DNA of 44,609 bases from NCBI GenBank assembly GCA_030950375.1, contig JAUZRN010000037.1:1-44609 (forward strand). Direction: 5' to 3'. Position numbers and translations under genes: made by a program. Source of the DNA: Rhodothermus sp. GTDB lineage: Bacteria; Bacteroidota; Rhodothermia; Rhodothermales; Rhodothermaceae. Of the stretch, positions 1,703 to 38,940 are shown in pieces. The notes under the pieces were generated by a model. The model was given only the letters and a program-made list of their open reading frames with translations, was not told where the DNA came from and did no database searches. The stretch's first letter is position 1. Each line of letters begins with the position of its first letter.

Positions 1703-2842
1703 ATGTCGCGCGTTGATGTCTGCTTTGCGCTGGTCGGATCGATTCCCCACAACAGCCGGGCGTTGCGGCAGCTTCGGGCGCTTGTAGATATGGGGCTTCG
1801 GATCGAGGCTATTGGCGTTGCGCCGCCGGCCCCCCTGCCAGCCGACCTGCGTGATGCAGTCCATTACCGGACACTCCCCCCTCCAACAGCAACCGGACCG
1901 CGGTTCTTCTGGCAGGTGCATCGGCAGCTCAGGGCCGCTGTCGTGTCCTGCATCGCCCGGATCTACCATGCCAGTGATCTGTACGTACTGCCGGCCCTGG
2001 CGGCAGCTGCCCGACGTCATGGCGGACGGCTGGTATTCGATGTGCGGGAGCGGTATCCATATGTGGCCGGCACGGCGGGCCGCCCTGTGCGCCAGCACTT
2101 CTGGAAACTGGTAGAACGCCATTACATCCACCGTGCCGATCTGGTACTGACGGTCAGCGACGGCATTGCCAATCACCTGGTACAGGACTACAACATCACG
2201 CCCCCGCTGATCCTGTACAATGCTCCGGCAATACCCGCCAGCGTTTCACCGGCCCTTTCCCTGCGACGACGTTTGCAGCTTTCTGATCGTGCTGTACTGT
2301 TTCTTTATCAGGGACAGCTGCGGCCGGACCGGGGATGCCTGCTTCCGTTGGAAGTGCTATCCGACGTGCCTGCGGCTGTGCTGGTCTATCTGGGTGACGG
2401 ACCGCTGGCGCCGGCCATCCGGGAACGTGCCGCAGCGCTGGAGGTGGCCGACCGCGTATATCTACTCCCTCCTGTATTGCCCGACGAATTGCTGGCTGTC
2501 ACAGCCTCGGCCGATATCGGACTTGTATTGCTCGAAGACACCTGTCTGAATCACCGGCTGGCGCTGCCCAACAAGCTCTTCGAGTACCTGGCAGCCGGCG
2601 TGCCTGTCCTGGTCAGCGATCTGCCTGAGCTTCGTCGCGTAGTGGAAACCTATGGGGTAGGCTATGTCGTTGATACTCACAATCGCGAAGCGCTTACAGC
2701 CGCTATGCGACGGCTTGCTGAAGATGCTTCCCTGAGGCGTCGACTGGCGGCGCGCACGCGTGTAGCCTTTGCAGCACATAGCTGGACCCGCCTGGTTTCC
2801 CGTTTTCAAGAAGCTTACCGGAATCTGTTATGCGATATGTAA
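1703..2842 (+). CDS. Glycosyltransferase, GT-B fold (GT4-like)
   Basis: This 379-residue protein has the two-domain layout of GT-B glycosyltransferases. The N-terminal acceptor domain begins MSRVDVCFALVG. A linker region carries RADLVLTVSDGIANHL, and the C-terminal nucleotide-sugar domain has YQGQLRPDRG, VYLGDGPL and the donor-site stretch ALPNKLFEYLAAGVPVLVSD, where the family's EX7E-type acidic residue falls. It should transfer a sugar from an NDP-sugar to a cytoplasmic or membrane-face acceptor; donor and acceptor cannot be told. The frame is open upstream to 1613, but that would start inside the terminator, so the internal ATG at 1703 is preferred. Its end overlaps the next gene by 13 bases. 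Confidence 0.85.
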   Translation: MSRVDVCFALVGSIPHNSRALRQLRALVDMGLRIEAIGVAPPAPLPADLRDAVHYRTLPPPTATGPRFFWQVHRQLRAAVVSCIARIYHASDLYVLPALAAAARRHGGRLVFDVRERYPYVAGTAGRPVRQHFWKLVERHYIHRADLVLTVSDGIANHLVQDYNITPPLILYNAPAIPASVSPALSLRRRLQLSDRAVLFLYQGQLRPDRGCLLPLEVLSDVPAAVLVYLGDGPLAPAIRERAAALEVADRVYLLPPVLPDELLAVTASADIGLVLLEDTCLNHRLALPNKLFEYLAAGVPVLVSDLPELRRVVETYGVGYVVDTHNREALTAAMRRLAEDASLRRRLAARTRVAFAAHSWTRLVSRFQEAYRNLLCDM

Positions 2843-3348
2843 TACTCTCTGGTTGGCTGAGTCTGATCGTCCTCCTTTCACAGACGGTTCAGGCCCAATC
2901 CTCGCTATTTGACCCCTCGATCACGGCTCCGATTGGATGGGTGCGGGTGGAAGAAGCCATGGCCGCAGCAGCCAACAGCGGCAAAAAGGTGCTGATCGAT
3001 ATTTCAGCGCCCTGGTGTCCCTGGTGCCGTCGCATGCAAAAAGAAGTCTACGCCGATTCAACGGTAGCGGCCTACCTGAAGGCGCATTTTGAATATGCCC
3101 GGCTCAATGGCGAAGATACCGAACGTAAGCTTACTTTCCGTGGCTATGAACTGACCGAGGCCGAGCTGGCCCAGGCGCTGGGGCTTTCAGGCTATCCGAC
3201 CACCGTCTTCCTGGAACCGGACGGCACCTACATCACACGCGTGCCTGGCTTTGTGCCCACCGAGACGTTTCTGCAGATTCTACGCTTCATTGGCTCAGAA
3301 GCCTATCGCACGCAGAGCTTCGAGGAATTCATGCAACAACAGCGCTGA
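2830..3348 (+). CDS. Secreted thioredoxin-like protein
   Basis: The 172-residue product has an N-terminal signal peptide (cleavage likely after QTVQAQ, near residue 23), so it acts outside the cytoplasm. The thioredoxin fold shows the active-site motif WCPWC with cysteines 63 and 66, and the cis-proline segment GYPTTVFLEPDG around Pro123. An insertion between them (GYELTEAELAQALGL) is common in the DsbD-gamma/Thioredoxin_7 type. Both redox cysteines are present, so a disulfide reductase or isomerase role is plausible. It starts inside the last codons of the glycosyltransferase, which suggests translational coupling. The partner protein is not evident. Confidence 0.85.
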   Translation: MRYVILSGWLSLIVLLSQTVQAQSSLFDPSITAPIGWVRVEEAMAAAANSGKKVLIDISAPWCPWCRRMQKEVYADSTVAAYLKAHFEYARLNGEDTERKLTFRGYELTEAELAQALGLSGYPTTVFLEPDGTYITRVPGFVPTETFLQILRFIGSEAYRTQSFEEFMQQQR

Positions 3349-3386
3349 CCCGGTTTCTTTTAAATCCTGGCGAAGAACTTCGGGCT

Positions 3387-3725
3387 GGAATGGCTTCGCC
3401 GGCTGAAGCCTTTCGTTCCACGATAGCCTTCTATGCAAGAGAAAGCAAAGGAGCGTGTTGTGCCTCTGGGGTCAGCTTCTCATCGGGTTTAGGTTTAGGC
3501 GTACCCCTTCCGCCACGTGTCGATAGCTCTCTTCGAGAGGCAGCGCAAAAAACTGATGTCCCCAACCCTTGGCCTGCTACAGGCAAATATCCCCTCAGGC
3601 CCTTCGGGCCTGCTCCCCCTCGAAGGAAGAGCAAAGCTCCTGGTGCAGCAACGAAATGCTTAGCCAGCCTCATCGGTCTACTCCTGTAGCCGAGCTTCGA
3701 GACAGCTCCCCATCGGTCTGGGCTT
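3387..3725 (-). ncRNA. Hairpin-dense gene-free element, candidate structured RNA or decayed mobile-element end
   Basis: I find no credible protein in the 577 bases between 3348 and 3926. In 3387-3725 at least seven short inverted repeats are packed together: 3387-3419 (GGAA/TTCC around GGCTTC/GAAGCC), 3498-3514 (GGCG/CGCC), 3527-3539 (CTCTC/GAGAG), 3572-3584 (GCCTG/CAGGC), 3596-3612 (CAGGCCC/GGGCCTG), 3629-3639 (GAGC/GCTC) and 3692-3708 (GAGCT/AGCTC). On the minus strand two of them close on C-GAA-G triloops. A 9-base direct repeat CATCGGTCT stands at 3671 and 3711. It could be a structured RNA or a degenerate transposon end; strand and limits are guesses. The remaining part, 3726-3860, shows nothing I recognise. 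Confidence 0.3.
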
Positions 3726-3860
3726 CAGGGCAATGAACCGGAGACTTTTACGCGACGGTATGTGACGTACAGGATCACTCCTTCCCTCTCAGCGATAAAC
3801 AGCCACCGAGCTACGCGACGTCGTAAGAATCGCCCGCTCTTTCTCGTAGAGGCCTGCCCT

Positions 3861-3900
3861 GAAAAACAACAGGGCCCTGCCCCGTGAGGGCCAGGGCCCT
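3861..3900 (-). terminator. Intrinsic terminator of the sulfate/UDP-sugar operon
   Basis: AGGGCCCTG (3871-3879) and CAGGGCCCT (3892-3900) form a 9-bp perfect stem. Read on the minus strand it is followed by a T-rich run (GTTGTTTTTC). It lies 26 bases after the stop of the ATP sulfurylase/APS kinase gene. Confidence 0.8.
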
Positions 3901-3925
3901 CCGTTTGGCCGTTGCGTTTTTGCAT

Positions 3926-5662
3926 TCAAGCGTTATTCGCTTCCTTCTTCAGGTAGCCTTGCTGATAGAGATAATCGAGAATTTTCTCAACGCACTGCTC
4001 GACCGTCTCTTCTGTCGTACGACAGACGACTTCCGGGTTTGAGGGGGGCTCGTAGGGATCGTCGATGCCTGTAAAGCCCTTAATAAGGCCGGCGCGTGCT
4101 TTAGCGTAGAGTCCCTTGACGTCGCGCTGCTCGCATACTTCGAGCGGTGTATCGACAAAAACTTCGATATAACCGCCGACACTACTGATGAGCTGGCGGT
4201 TGTACTGCCGGTCTGCTTCGTAAGGAGCAATTGGTGCACAGATTGCAATGCCTCGGTGTTTGGTGATCTCGCTGGCCACGTAGCCAATGCGTCGCACGTT
4301 GGTGGAGCGATCTTCACGGGAGAAGCCCAATCCTTTGCTCAGATGCGTACGCACCACATCCCCGTCAAGGAGCGTAACCGGCCGTCCGGTCAGCTCTAAC
4401 AGGCGCGTCATCAGCGCGTTGGCAATGGTTGACTTCCCCGAGCCGGACAGGCCTGTAAAGAAGACGGTGAAGCCCTGTTGATGGCGCGGCGGATGCGTGC
4501 GACGCAACTCGGCCACGACCTCCGGGTAAGAAAACCATTCGGGAATATCCTCACCTGCGGCCAGGCGCCGTCGTAGCTCGGTGCCGGAGATGCTCAGTGT
4601 CCGCTCGCCTTCCTTGACCTCGTCGATCGGTTTATAGGTGTCCAGCTCTGGCACATACACCATCAGCTTGAAGGGGACCACACCGATGCCCAGTTCGTCC
4701 TGGTACTGCTGAACCAGCTCCTGGGCGTCGTAGGGGCCATAAAACGGTTTGCCGCTGGAATCTTTGCCTGGTCCGGCATGGTCACGACCGATGATCAGGT
4801 GGGTGCAGCCGTAGTTTTTACGGATAATGGCATGCCAGATCGCCTCGCGAGGCCCGCCCATCCGCATGGCCAGCGGCAGTAGGCTCAGCATAGCCCGGCC
4901 TTCGGGATAGTACTTGAGCAGTTTCCGGTAGCATCGCACCCGCGTGTAGTAATCAATGTCGCCAGGTTTTGTCATGCCCACCACTGGATGGATGAGCAGA
5001 TGGCCACCGACTTCCTCAGCAGCACGGTCGGTCAGCTCCTTGTGGGCCCGGTGCATGGGATTGCGCGTCTGAAACGCTACGATCCGCTCCCATCCTCGTC
5101 GTTCAAACTCGGCCCGTAGCTGGGCCGGTGTATGGCGCAACGCTTTGAAATCGTAATGTACCGGGAGCTGGACACCGCTGAGCGTACCGCCTACGTAGTA
5201 ATCGCCAGCCTCATGCATCAGGTACGCCACCGCCGGATGTTCCGTACTCGTGGTGCCAAAGACCAGACGGGCCTCTCGCTCCTTGTCGGGTTGCCACACG
5301 TCCTCGACCTGCATCACAGCCAGTAGCAGGCCGGTCGGATCTCGCAGCGCCACTTCGTCGCCGGGGTTCAGCGTACGAGCCACTGCTTCCGAAACGTCCA
5401 GCGTAATCGGGATGGGCCAGAGGATACCGCTTTGCAGGCGCATCTCCTCGACGACCCGGTTGTAGTCGGCCCGATTCATAAAGCCGCGCAGCGGCGAAAA
5501 GCCTCCGTTCAGTAGCAGCTCAAGGTCGCAGAGCTGTCGGGGTGTAAGCGTAATCGAAGGCAACGTCAGCGCTTTTTCCTTGAGCGTCTGGCGTTCCTCT
5601 TCGGGAACGATCAGCTCGCAGAGGACCCCGCCGTGTGGCTCAATGAGTGTGGTAGTAGGCAT
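3926..5662 (-). CDS. sat-cysC: Bifunctional ATP sulfurylase / APS kinase
   Basis: This 578-residue fusion makes PAPS from sulfate in two steps. Residues 1 to about 390 are ATP sulfurylase, with the nucleotide-binding motifs QTRNPMHRAH (198-207) and GRDHAGPGKD (292-301). Residues from about 395 are APS kinase, with an intact P-loop GLSGSGKST (404-412) and the DGD segment of the LLDGDVVR motif. With the P-loop complete, both activities should be live. Sulfurylase-first order is the bacterial arrangement; animal PAPS synthases have the reverse. The gene is last in a unit with an SLC13 permease 38 bases upstream and two UDP-sugar enzymes. PAPS could feed sulfotransfer as well as reduction; no PAPS reductase is visible here. 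Confidence 0.95.
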   Translation of the reverse strand: MPTTTLIEPHGGVLCELIVPEEERQTLKEKALTLPSITLTPRQLCDLELLLNGGFSPLRGFMNRADYNRVVEEMRLQSGILWPIPITLDVSEAVARTLNPGDEVALRDPTGLLLAVMQVEDVWQPDKEREARLVFGTTSTEHPAVAYLMHEAGDYYVGGTLSGVQLPVHYDFKALRHTPAQLRAEFERRGWERIVAFQTRNPMHRAHKELTDRAAEEVGGHLLIHPVVGMTKPGDIDYYTRVRCYRKLLKYYPEGRAMLSLLPLAMRMGGPREAIWHAIIRKNYGCTHLIIGRDHAGPGKDSSGKPFYGPYDAQELVQQYQDELGIGVVPFKLMVYVPELDTYKPIDEVKEGERTLSISGTELRRRLAAGEDIPEWFSYPEVVAELRRTHPPRHQQGFTVFFTGLSGSGKSTIANALMTRLLELTGRPVTLLDGDVVRTHLSKGLGFSREDRSTNVRRIGYVASEITKHRGIAICAPIAPYEADRQYNRQLISSVGGYIEVFVDTPLEVCEQRDVKGLYAKARAGLIKGFTGIDDPYEPPSNPEVVCRTTEETVEQCVEKILDYLYQQGYLKKEANNA

Positions 5663-38180: not shown

Positions 38181-38537
38181 TCATCGATCCAGTTCTTCAC
38201 CGGTGGTTTTCGCATAGCGCACCCAGCGTCCGCGTCCCGTAGCCGGGTCTTCCACCCATTTGCGCCCCACCCGCGTAGGTCGTCCGTTACTGTCAAGCGG
38301 CATCACGTTCGAGACGTGGATGGGCATTTCCTGCTGGATGCGCCCACCCTGCGGATATTTCGGGCTGGGACGCACATGCCGGATGCGCAGGTTCACGCCT
38401 TCCACAATCACACGCTGCTTCTTGGGGAAGACGCGTAGAATGCGGCCTTCCTTACCTTTGTCGTTGCCGGCGATCACGCGCACCAGATCGCCCCGTTTTA
38501 CGTGCAGCTTGGGTTGCTTATTTTTCTTACGCGGCAT
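38181..38537 (-). CDS. rplX: 50S ribosomal protein L24
   Basis: From the ATG at 38537 it has 118 residues; the four residues before it would need a TTG start. The KOW motif is clear in [20 protein letters not shown], followed by [20 protein letters not shown] and [13 protein letters not shown]. It starts early 50S assembly. The C-terminal end ([20 protein letters not shown]) is somewhat longer than in E. coli. Confidence 0.97.
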
Positions 38538-38571
38538 GGCCTTCTGCAACGCTTAGGTTGTACGCGGCGGC

Positions 38572-38940
38572 TCACACGACTTCAGGGGCCAGCGAAACAA
38601 TACGCATGAAGCGTTTGTCGCGTAGCTCCCGCGCCACCGGCCCAAAGATACGGGTACCAATCGGCTCATCCTGGTTGTTAATCAGAACCGCCGCATTATC
38701 ATCAAAACGAATGTAAGTTCCGTCAGGCCGGCGATACTCCTTCCTGGTACGGACGACCACAGCTTTCACCACGTCGCCCTTCTTTACGCTACCCCCCGGA
38801 ATTGCCGACTTGACGGAAACCACAATTTTATCTCCTACGCGGGCGTAGCGCTTGTGGCTTCCGCCCAGCACCCGAATGCAGAGCACTTCTTTGGCTCCGC
38901 TGTTATCGGCAACAACCAGCCTGCTTTCCTGCTGAATCAT
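38572..38940 (-). CDS. rplN: 50S ribosomal protein L14
   Basis: 122 residues: [20 protein letters not shown], the signature region [20 protein letters not shown] and [20 protein letters not shown], ending [11 protein letters not shown]14 sits at the subunit interface and is the docking site of RsfS. Normal length, 34 bases before rplX. Confidence 0.98.

Follow-up and report, generated by a model that had tools for sequence, protein, structure and literature searches.

What fills the 577-bp gene-free stretch at positions 3349-3925 of the window, the 44,609-nucleotide contig of Rhodothermus sp. analysed in this work (genome G000)? The stretch is a gap between convergent genes, since a trx-like gene on the plus strand (2830-3348) and a gene for a bifunctional ATP sulfurylase/APS kinase (sat) on the minus strand (3926-5662), ending at 3348 and 3926 respectively, face each other. 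An initial annotation had described it as the only gap above 300 bases and had read its hairpins either as a candidate structured RNA or as the relic of an IS200/IS605 element keeping mostly its omega RNA end. The stretch is indeed free of genes, but with a crude ORF proxy it turned out to be one of several gaps above 300 bp, some of the others holding small genes such as the ribosomal-protein-like ORFs at 38181-38940. At 1359-1589, within the 444-base gap upstream of a 409-codon ORF (1613-2842), lies a small, lipoprotein-like ORF in which a peptide (NNGGGSTTIGAGHNN) is repeated almost perfectly.

The flagged inverted repeats are present, for example the GGCCC..GGGCC hairpin and two others listed in Table 1, and their density exceeds that of shuffled sequence. 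By counting perfect inverted repeats with a stem of at least 6 and a loop of 3-8, we found 5 in the stretch versus 0.82 in dinucleotide shuffles (p ~0.003), a number that only 1.3% of the 577-base windows of the contig reach; with stems of at least 5, the count was 8 versus 3.5 (p ~0.007). The open frames at 3431-3673 (minus strand), 3390-3689 (plus strand) and 3725-3925 (minus strand) are not genes by any of the sequence tests applied: no Pfam family matched them, PHROGs gave a single weak match (E=0.015), and the frame 3431-3673 is interrupted by frame-breaking gaps in the alignment with the sister species.

Searching the stretch against its own genome and 39 relatives returned a single full match, another 16 places in the same genome and many matches in five congeners. 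These are the multiple copies in related Rhodothermus genomes that had been proposed as a sign of a mobile-element RNA. Nearly all of these matches fall on query positions 243-287, corresponding to 3591-3635 of the window, and the 16 in the same genome are 75-93% identical to arm A (see below) over the matched piece. Reading about 60 copies made one common unit visible: an arm A (CCCCTCAGGCCCTTCGGGCCAGCTCCCCCTnnAAGGGGGAGC), then a linker of about 75 nt that exists in several types, then an arm B (CCCCCTCCCCTCTGGGGAGGGGGACAGGGGGAGGG), which on the opposite strand resembles arm A, the two arms thus being inverted. Arm A has the layout CCCCTCAG-hairpin-CAGCTCCCC..GGGGAGC and contains two hairpins. 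Intact units are 149-161 nt long (n=23), the linker being the variable part; they occur alone or head-to-tail at a spacing of about 220 bp, and sit between genes according to a simple ORF proxy. Across the seven genomes of the genus (G000 and its congeners G001 to G006), the copy numbers, all of them lower bounds, were at least 117 in G006, 87 in G005, 44 in G000, 14 in G004, 13 in G002 and 3 in G003, and no copy was found in G001. In the draft assemblies, several contigs stop inside or close to repeat units, the present assembly consisting of 68 contigs.

The window holds one such unit over its full length, in a decayed state. The covariance model R1, for which 23 other copies were used and the window copy was left out, places 3591-3736 at 50.7 bits (E=1.4e-10) over model positions 1-152, from the first to the last. 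A DNA HMM made without the window copy matches 3591-3663 with E=2.4e-13, which covers arm A and some of the linker. Given its decay, arm B of the window copy should be taken as predicted through the model alignment. The orthologous stretch of the sister species G006 contains a readable A-linker-B unit, which scores 53.6 bits and has a better preserved equivalent of arm B on contig C40, followed by the start of a second unit. Other hairpins of the stretch, such as 3527-3539, may be older remnants of the repeat. Over 3504-3545, the G006 orthologue reads CTTGCGACAGCC..CTTTCCGAGAAG..AGC, which by eye is nearer to arm A; this segment had no model match, so that the remnant assignment is a weak one. 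Outside the repeat, the minus-strand hairpin with a T-run at 3866-3901 is likely the terminator of the sulfurylase gene, and a similar hairpin is found at the counterpart position in congeners without the insertion.

Table 1. Features assigned within the stretch and the basis of each assignment (window coordinates).
Feature	Position	Strand	Basis or remark
Putative inserted block of repeat-derived DNA between the convergent genes	3349-3865	none	Gap-length comparison; borders approximate
Decayed A-linker-B repeat unit, full length	3591-3736	+	R1 covariance model
Arm A: CCCCTCAG + hairpin GGCCCTTCGGGCC + hairpin GCTCCCCCTCGAAGGAAGAGC	3591-3633	+	Matches in the same genome and the genus; 73-arm alignment
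Linker of the unit	3634-3703	+	Aligned to the variable linker in the R1 match
Predicted arm B, badly decayed (CTCCCCATCGGTCTGGGCTTCAGGG...)	3704-3736	+	R1 placement, several pairs broken
Possible older A-arm remnant, holding the hairpin 3527-3539	3504-3545	+	By eye
Possible additional A-arm remnant, as another reading (CTTCGAGACAGCTCCCCAT)	3695-3713	+	nhmmer 4.5 bits, E=1.2, not significant
Likely intrinsic terminator of the ATP sulfurylase/APS kinase gene, outside the repeat	3866-3901	-	Stem-loop followed by TGTTTTT
Possible terminator of the trx-like gene	3392-3415	+	GGCTTCGCCGGCTGAAGCC followed by TTTCGTT; weak T-run
Hairpin	3596-3612		GGCCC..GGGCC
Inverted repeat	3527-3539		CTCTCTTCGAGAG
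Inverted repeat	3572-3584		GCCTGCTACAGGC

We then asked of the arms whether their stems covary, a check that the initial annotation had suggested for the stretch, and they do. In an alignment of 73 arms, the arm-A stem beside CCCCTCAG is paired in 97.6% of the cells versus 72.9% after shuffling, 66 cells are changed on both sides versus 24.8, and none of 500 shuffles reaches the observed covariation score. The pattern used to gather the rows from other phyla fixes the outer stem letters, so that these rows contribute through the inner pair only. A later pattern without fixed stem letters yielded 67 distinct arms with a mean stem of 4.36 versus 1.69 in shuffles (maximum 2.09). Because the sequences are related, these shuffle tests do not give strict probabilities. 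As judged from these alignments, the arm structure is selected. The RNAalifold consensus of the 23 intact units displays terminal pairing together with hairpins in both arms.

The convergent gene pair is conserved in all seven genomes of the genus, and the distance between the two genes is about 43 bp in G001, 62 bp in G003, 74 bp in G004 and 107 bp in G002 versus 577 bp here. In G006 the pair is split over two contigs inside the repeat, and the stretch can be aligned with contigs C40 and C233. Since the same genes are only 43-107 bp apart in four congeners, we infer from presence and absence between species that the stretch is an inserted block, common to one sister species (G006). At the same place, G005 carries a separate large insertion with its own intact unit in opposite orientation, which on this comparison of loci indicates more than one insertion event at the site. 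Two more sites of the present genome behave alike. On contig C18 the flanks of the site are 1334 bp apart, compared with about 75-111 bp in G001, G002 and G004; on contig C57 the distance is 1341 bp, compared with 201 bp in G003. Each occupied gap contains two to three recognisable repeat units. The contrast between occupied and empty sites is thus based on three sites compared between species. Neither a target duplication nor a precise junction could be made out at the insertion.

Some neighbouring features deserve mention in their own right. The independent unit of G005 lies at L192:5665-5812 in opposite orientation, and a long minus-strand gene-like region of surface-protein character occupies L192:160-4900 between the same two genes. 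The trx-like orthologue of G006 (L051, G006:C40:534-1049) has an in-frame TAG near its end, directly before the repeat block. In G002 (L040:1850-1952), a Tn5-like DDE transposase element begins directly after an interrupted arm B, and an insertion sequence therefore appears to have landed in a hairpin arm.

Taking these data together, the stretch is very probably a decayed insertion of a dispersed, non-autonomous repeat resembling REPINs and BIMEs. The two readings offered by the initial annotation fare less well. An independent structured ncRNA or sRNA gene on the minus strand would agree with a hairpin density above that of shuffles and with covarying stems, but we regard it as very improbable. 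The folding energy of the whole stretch is only mildly low (z of -1.6 on the minus and -1.8 on the plus strand), a consensus scan of the stretch found no sigma-70-like promoter, and neither the window nor the stretch nor intact copies from Rhodothermus and other phyla matched an Rfam family at any threshold of note. (Weak scores for Methylosinus-1 and snoRNA, at chance level, were dismissed.) Moreover, the conserved unit is multi-copy, often tandem and variable in site, its linker is not conserved, and four congeners lack it at this site. As for an IS200/IS605 relic keeping its omega RNA end, a mobile hairpin element is present and tnpB-like genes exist in four species of the genus, yet we find this reading barely credible: no Y1 transposase (PF01797, RAYT/IS200 type) is detectable in this genome, its tnpB-like matches lie on contig C26, away from the repeat and from the window contig, and a pattern search for the repeat arm was negative at all four tnpB loci examined, so that copies beside tnpB genes, for which the initial annotation had suggested looking, did not turn up there. 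The conserved unit is a pair of symmetric inverted arms, as in REPINs and BIMEs, and not a scaffold with a guide. With no Rfam family, no Y1 transposase in the genome and no arm at tnpB loci, the guide-RNA reading is therefore not supported; what stands of the initial annotation is structured DNA of mobile-element character. The single-contig genome G002 (L196) has nine tnpB-like matches without a Y1 transposase.

A classical REPIN family mobilised by a RAYT that has been lost, or that hides in an assembly gap, is unlikely, even though the architecture fits, the assembly of 68 contigs is of a kind that arrays break, and a Y1 transposase is present in repeat-bearing Faecalibacterium and Longimonas as well as in a Caulobacter vibrioides control genome. 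Against it, PF01797 gave no match in six of the seven genomes of the genus, of which two are closed or nearly so and five carry more than 10 repeats; the sole match in the genus, a weak one, is in the repeat-free species G001; the transposase is also absent from seven of the nine repeat-bearing genomes of other groups; and the arm has no GTAG head. On the PF01797 and tnpB searches, we rejected both the RAYT/IS200 transposase and tnpB as partners of the repeat. Strong bidirectional terminators that arose repeatedly, with no mobile history, would account for intergenic placement and for the T-rich DNA that follows GC hairpins in many copies. They would leave unexplained why CCCCTCAG and CAGCTCCCC stay fixed on both sides of a stem that varies freely, and likewise the arrangement of the arms in inverted pairs, the tandem arrays and the blocks of 0.5-1.3 kb at sites that are empty in relatives, which makes this explanation improbable.

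Our preferred reading of a decayed, non-autonomous repeat insertion builds on the observed presence and absence at sites, the copy number, the pairing and the lack of a detectable RAYT, and the movement itself would proceed as follows. Single-stranded arms, together with the terminal CCCCT/AGGGG pairing, would adopt a clover-like fold, which a putative enzyme acting in trans would cut and re-insert in intergenic DNA. Recombination between copies would enlarge the arrays, and ageing copies, that of the window among them, would decay by point mutations and small deletions. A present role, if any, for example in transcription termination or in protection of mRNA 3' ends, would be secondary. A search for an autonomous element, that is a recurrent gene bracketed by arms, gave no recurrent candidate in 120 loci of other genomes, and no vehicle was identified, as blastn of an intact Rhodothermus unit against plasmid and phage collections returned nothing.

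The arm motif extends beyond the genus. A scan of bacterial and archaeal genomes with one version of arm A gave at least 120 stretches, and the groups among the matches listed were Caulobacterales, other Alphaproteobacteria, Clostridia, Bifidobacterium, Dehalococcoidia, Longimonas and Bacteroidota. Counts of the exact pattern reached 161 in a Caulobacter genome (G230), 106 in Caulobacter sp. 602-2 and 73 in Caulobacter endophyticus; they were 75 in a Clostridia MAG, 38 in Bifidobacterium, 23 in Ruminococcus callidus and 22 in Longimonas. Up to 161 matches occur per genome and the reversed control pattern had zero matches in the same chosen genomes, which speaks against chance as the source of the boxes shared across phyla. 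By contrast, among 198 genomes sampled from the phylum of the window, 194 lack the arm pattern and only three Rhodothermus genomes carry it, apart from one chance-like match. Units in other phyla are mostly about 90-130 nt long. Freely varying palindromic stems were seen in arms from Caulobacterales, Clostridia and Bifidobacterium (among them G040, G044, G047, G048, G229 and G230; L069-L188). With somewhat less than even confidence, we propose that CCCCTCAG-[free palindrome]-CAGCTCCCC-loop-GGGGAGC could be the recognition site of one broadly distributed, putative non-RAYT enzyme that would spread a hairpin repeat across Bacteroidota, Alphaproteobacteria, Clostridia and Bifidobacterium, the window holding a dying copy. 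Shared descent, horizontal spread or convergence on an enzyme preference may account for the arm in the different phyla. String searches of the literature for the arm sequence gave apparent chance matches only, the RepRanger survey of REPs does not mention the genera concerned, and our literature searches found no description of the present repeat family.

The locus itself is ordinary, a decayed family member and a dying copy of the repeat, and what changes for it is a correction: the gap is decayed mobile DNA and not a regulatory RNA. The interest lies in the family across phyla, mostly without RAYTs, which raises the question of what moves it. The spread of REPs and REPINs is explained by RAYT transposases, and here the same architecture, at more than 100 copies per genome, comes with no RAYT found. 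Because the arm motif of such a RAYT-less, high-copy family recurs in distant phyla, what moves RAYT-free REPs is now testable by comparing repeat-rich with repeat-free congeners. The repeats may also explain why draft assemblies frequently break at such places.

Among known systems, the omega RNA of IS200/IS605 elements shares with the stretch hairpin-rich DNA and a mobile origin, and differs in its transposase, its tnpB neighbour, its scaffold/guide architecture and its Rfam family, none of which was found here. CIRs of Caulobacter and Brucella are described as intergenic repeats of about 110 bp with two arms, a linker and a conserved GANTC methylation site (Chen and Shapiro 2003, as cited in PMC2229807). 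By this description, to which our comparison is limited, the Rhodothermus unit resembles them in its two arms and linker, at about 150 nt versus 110 bp, and Caulobacter genomes hold many copies of the arm motif. A GANTC site is present in 10 of 23 Rhodothermus units versus 40% in shuffles and is thus not enriched, and as far as that description goes we dropped the link to CIRs on this point. CGTC-tagged REPs, a noted exception without a dedicated transposase (PMC3733652), are likewise palindromic repeats found in multiple phyla. They are single stems of 20-40 bp with a CGTC tag and a CCA-like tail, whereas the arm described here combines two hairpins with the boxes CCCCTCAG and CAGCTCCCC, and the CGTC tag is absent among the conserved columns of the arm alignment.

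The closest likeness is to REPINs and BIMEs. A REPIN is a REP doublet, made of two inverted palindromic arms and a less conserved spacer (Bertels and Rainey 2011, PMC3116915), and REPs and RAYTs are described as occurring together, with RAYT genes placed between two inverted REPs (PMC2817692). Our repeat differs in that PF01797 revealed no RAYT in G000 or in any repeat-bearing genome of the genus, in the box beside the stem, which is CCCCTCAG in the 73-arm alignment in place of a GTAG head, in its length (about 150 nt versus a 71-bp spacing for GI), in the sequence of its arms and in the two hairpins of the Rhodothermus arm A. Because the RAYT partner and the GTAG head fail, we did not file the family as a REPIN member. 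The likeness extends to inverted palindromic arms whose spacer is less conserved, to ends that pair, to compensatory changes, to intergenic placement in clusters and to many copies (at least 44 to at least 117 in three species), and the three occupied and empty sites, compared between species, are consistent with the site polymorphism that characterises REPINs.
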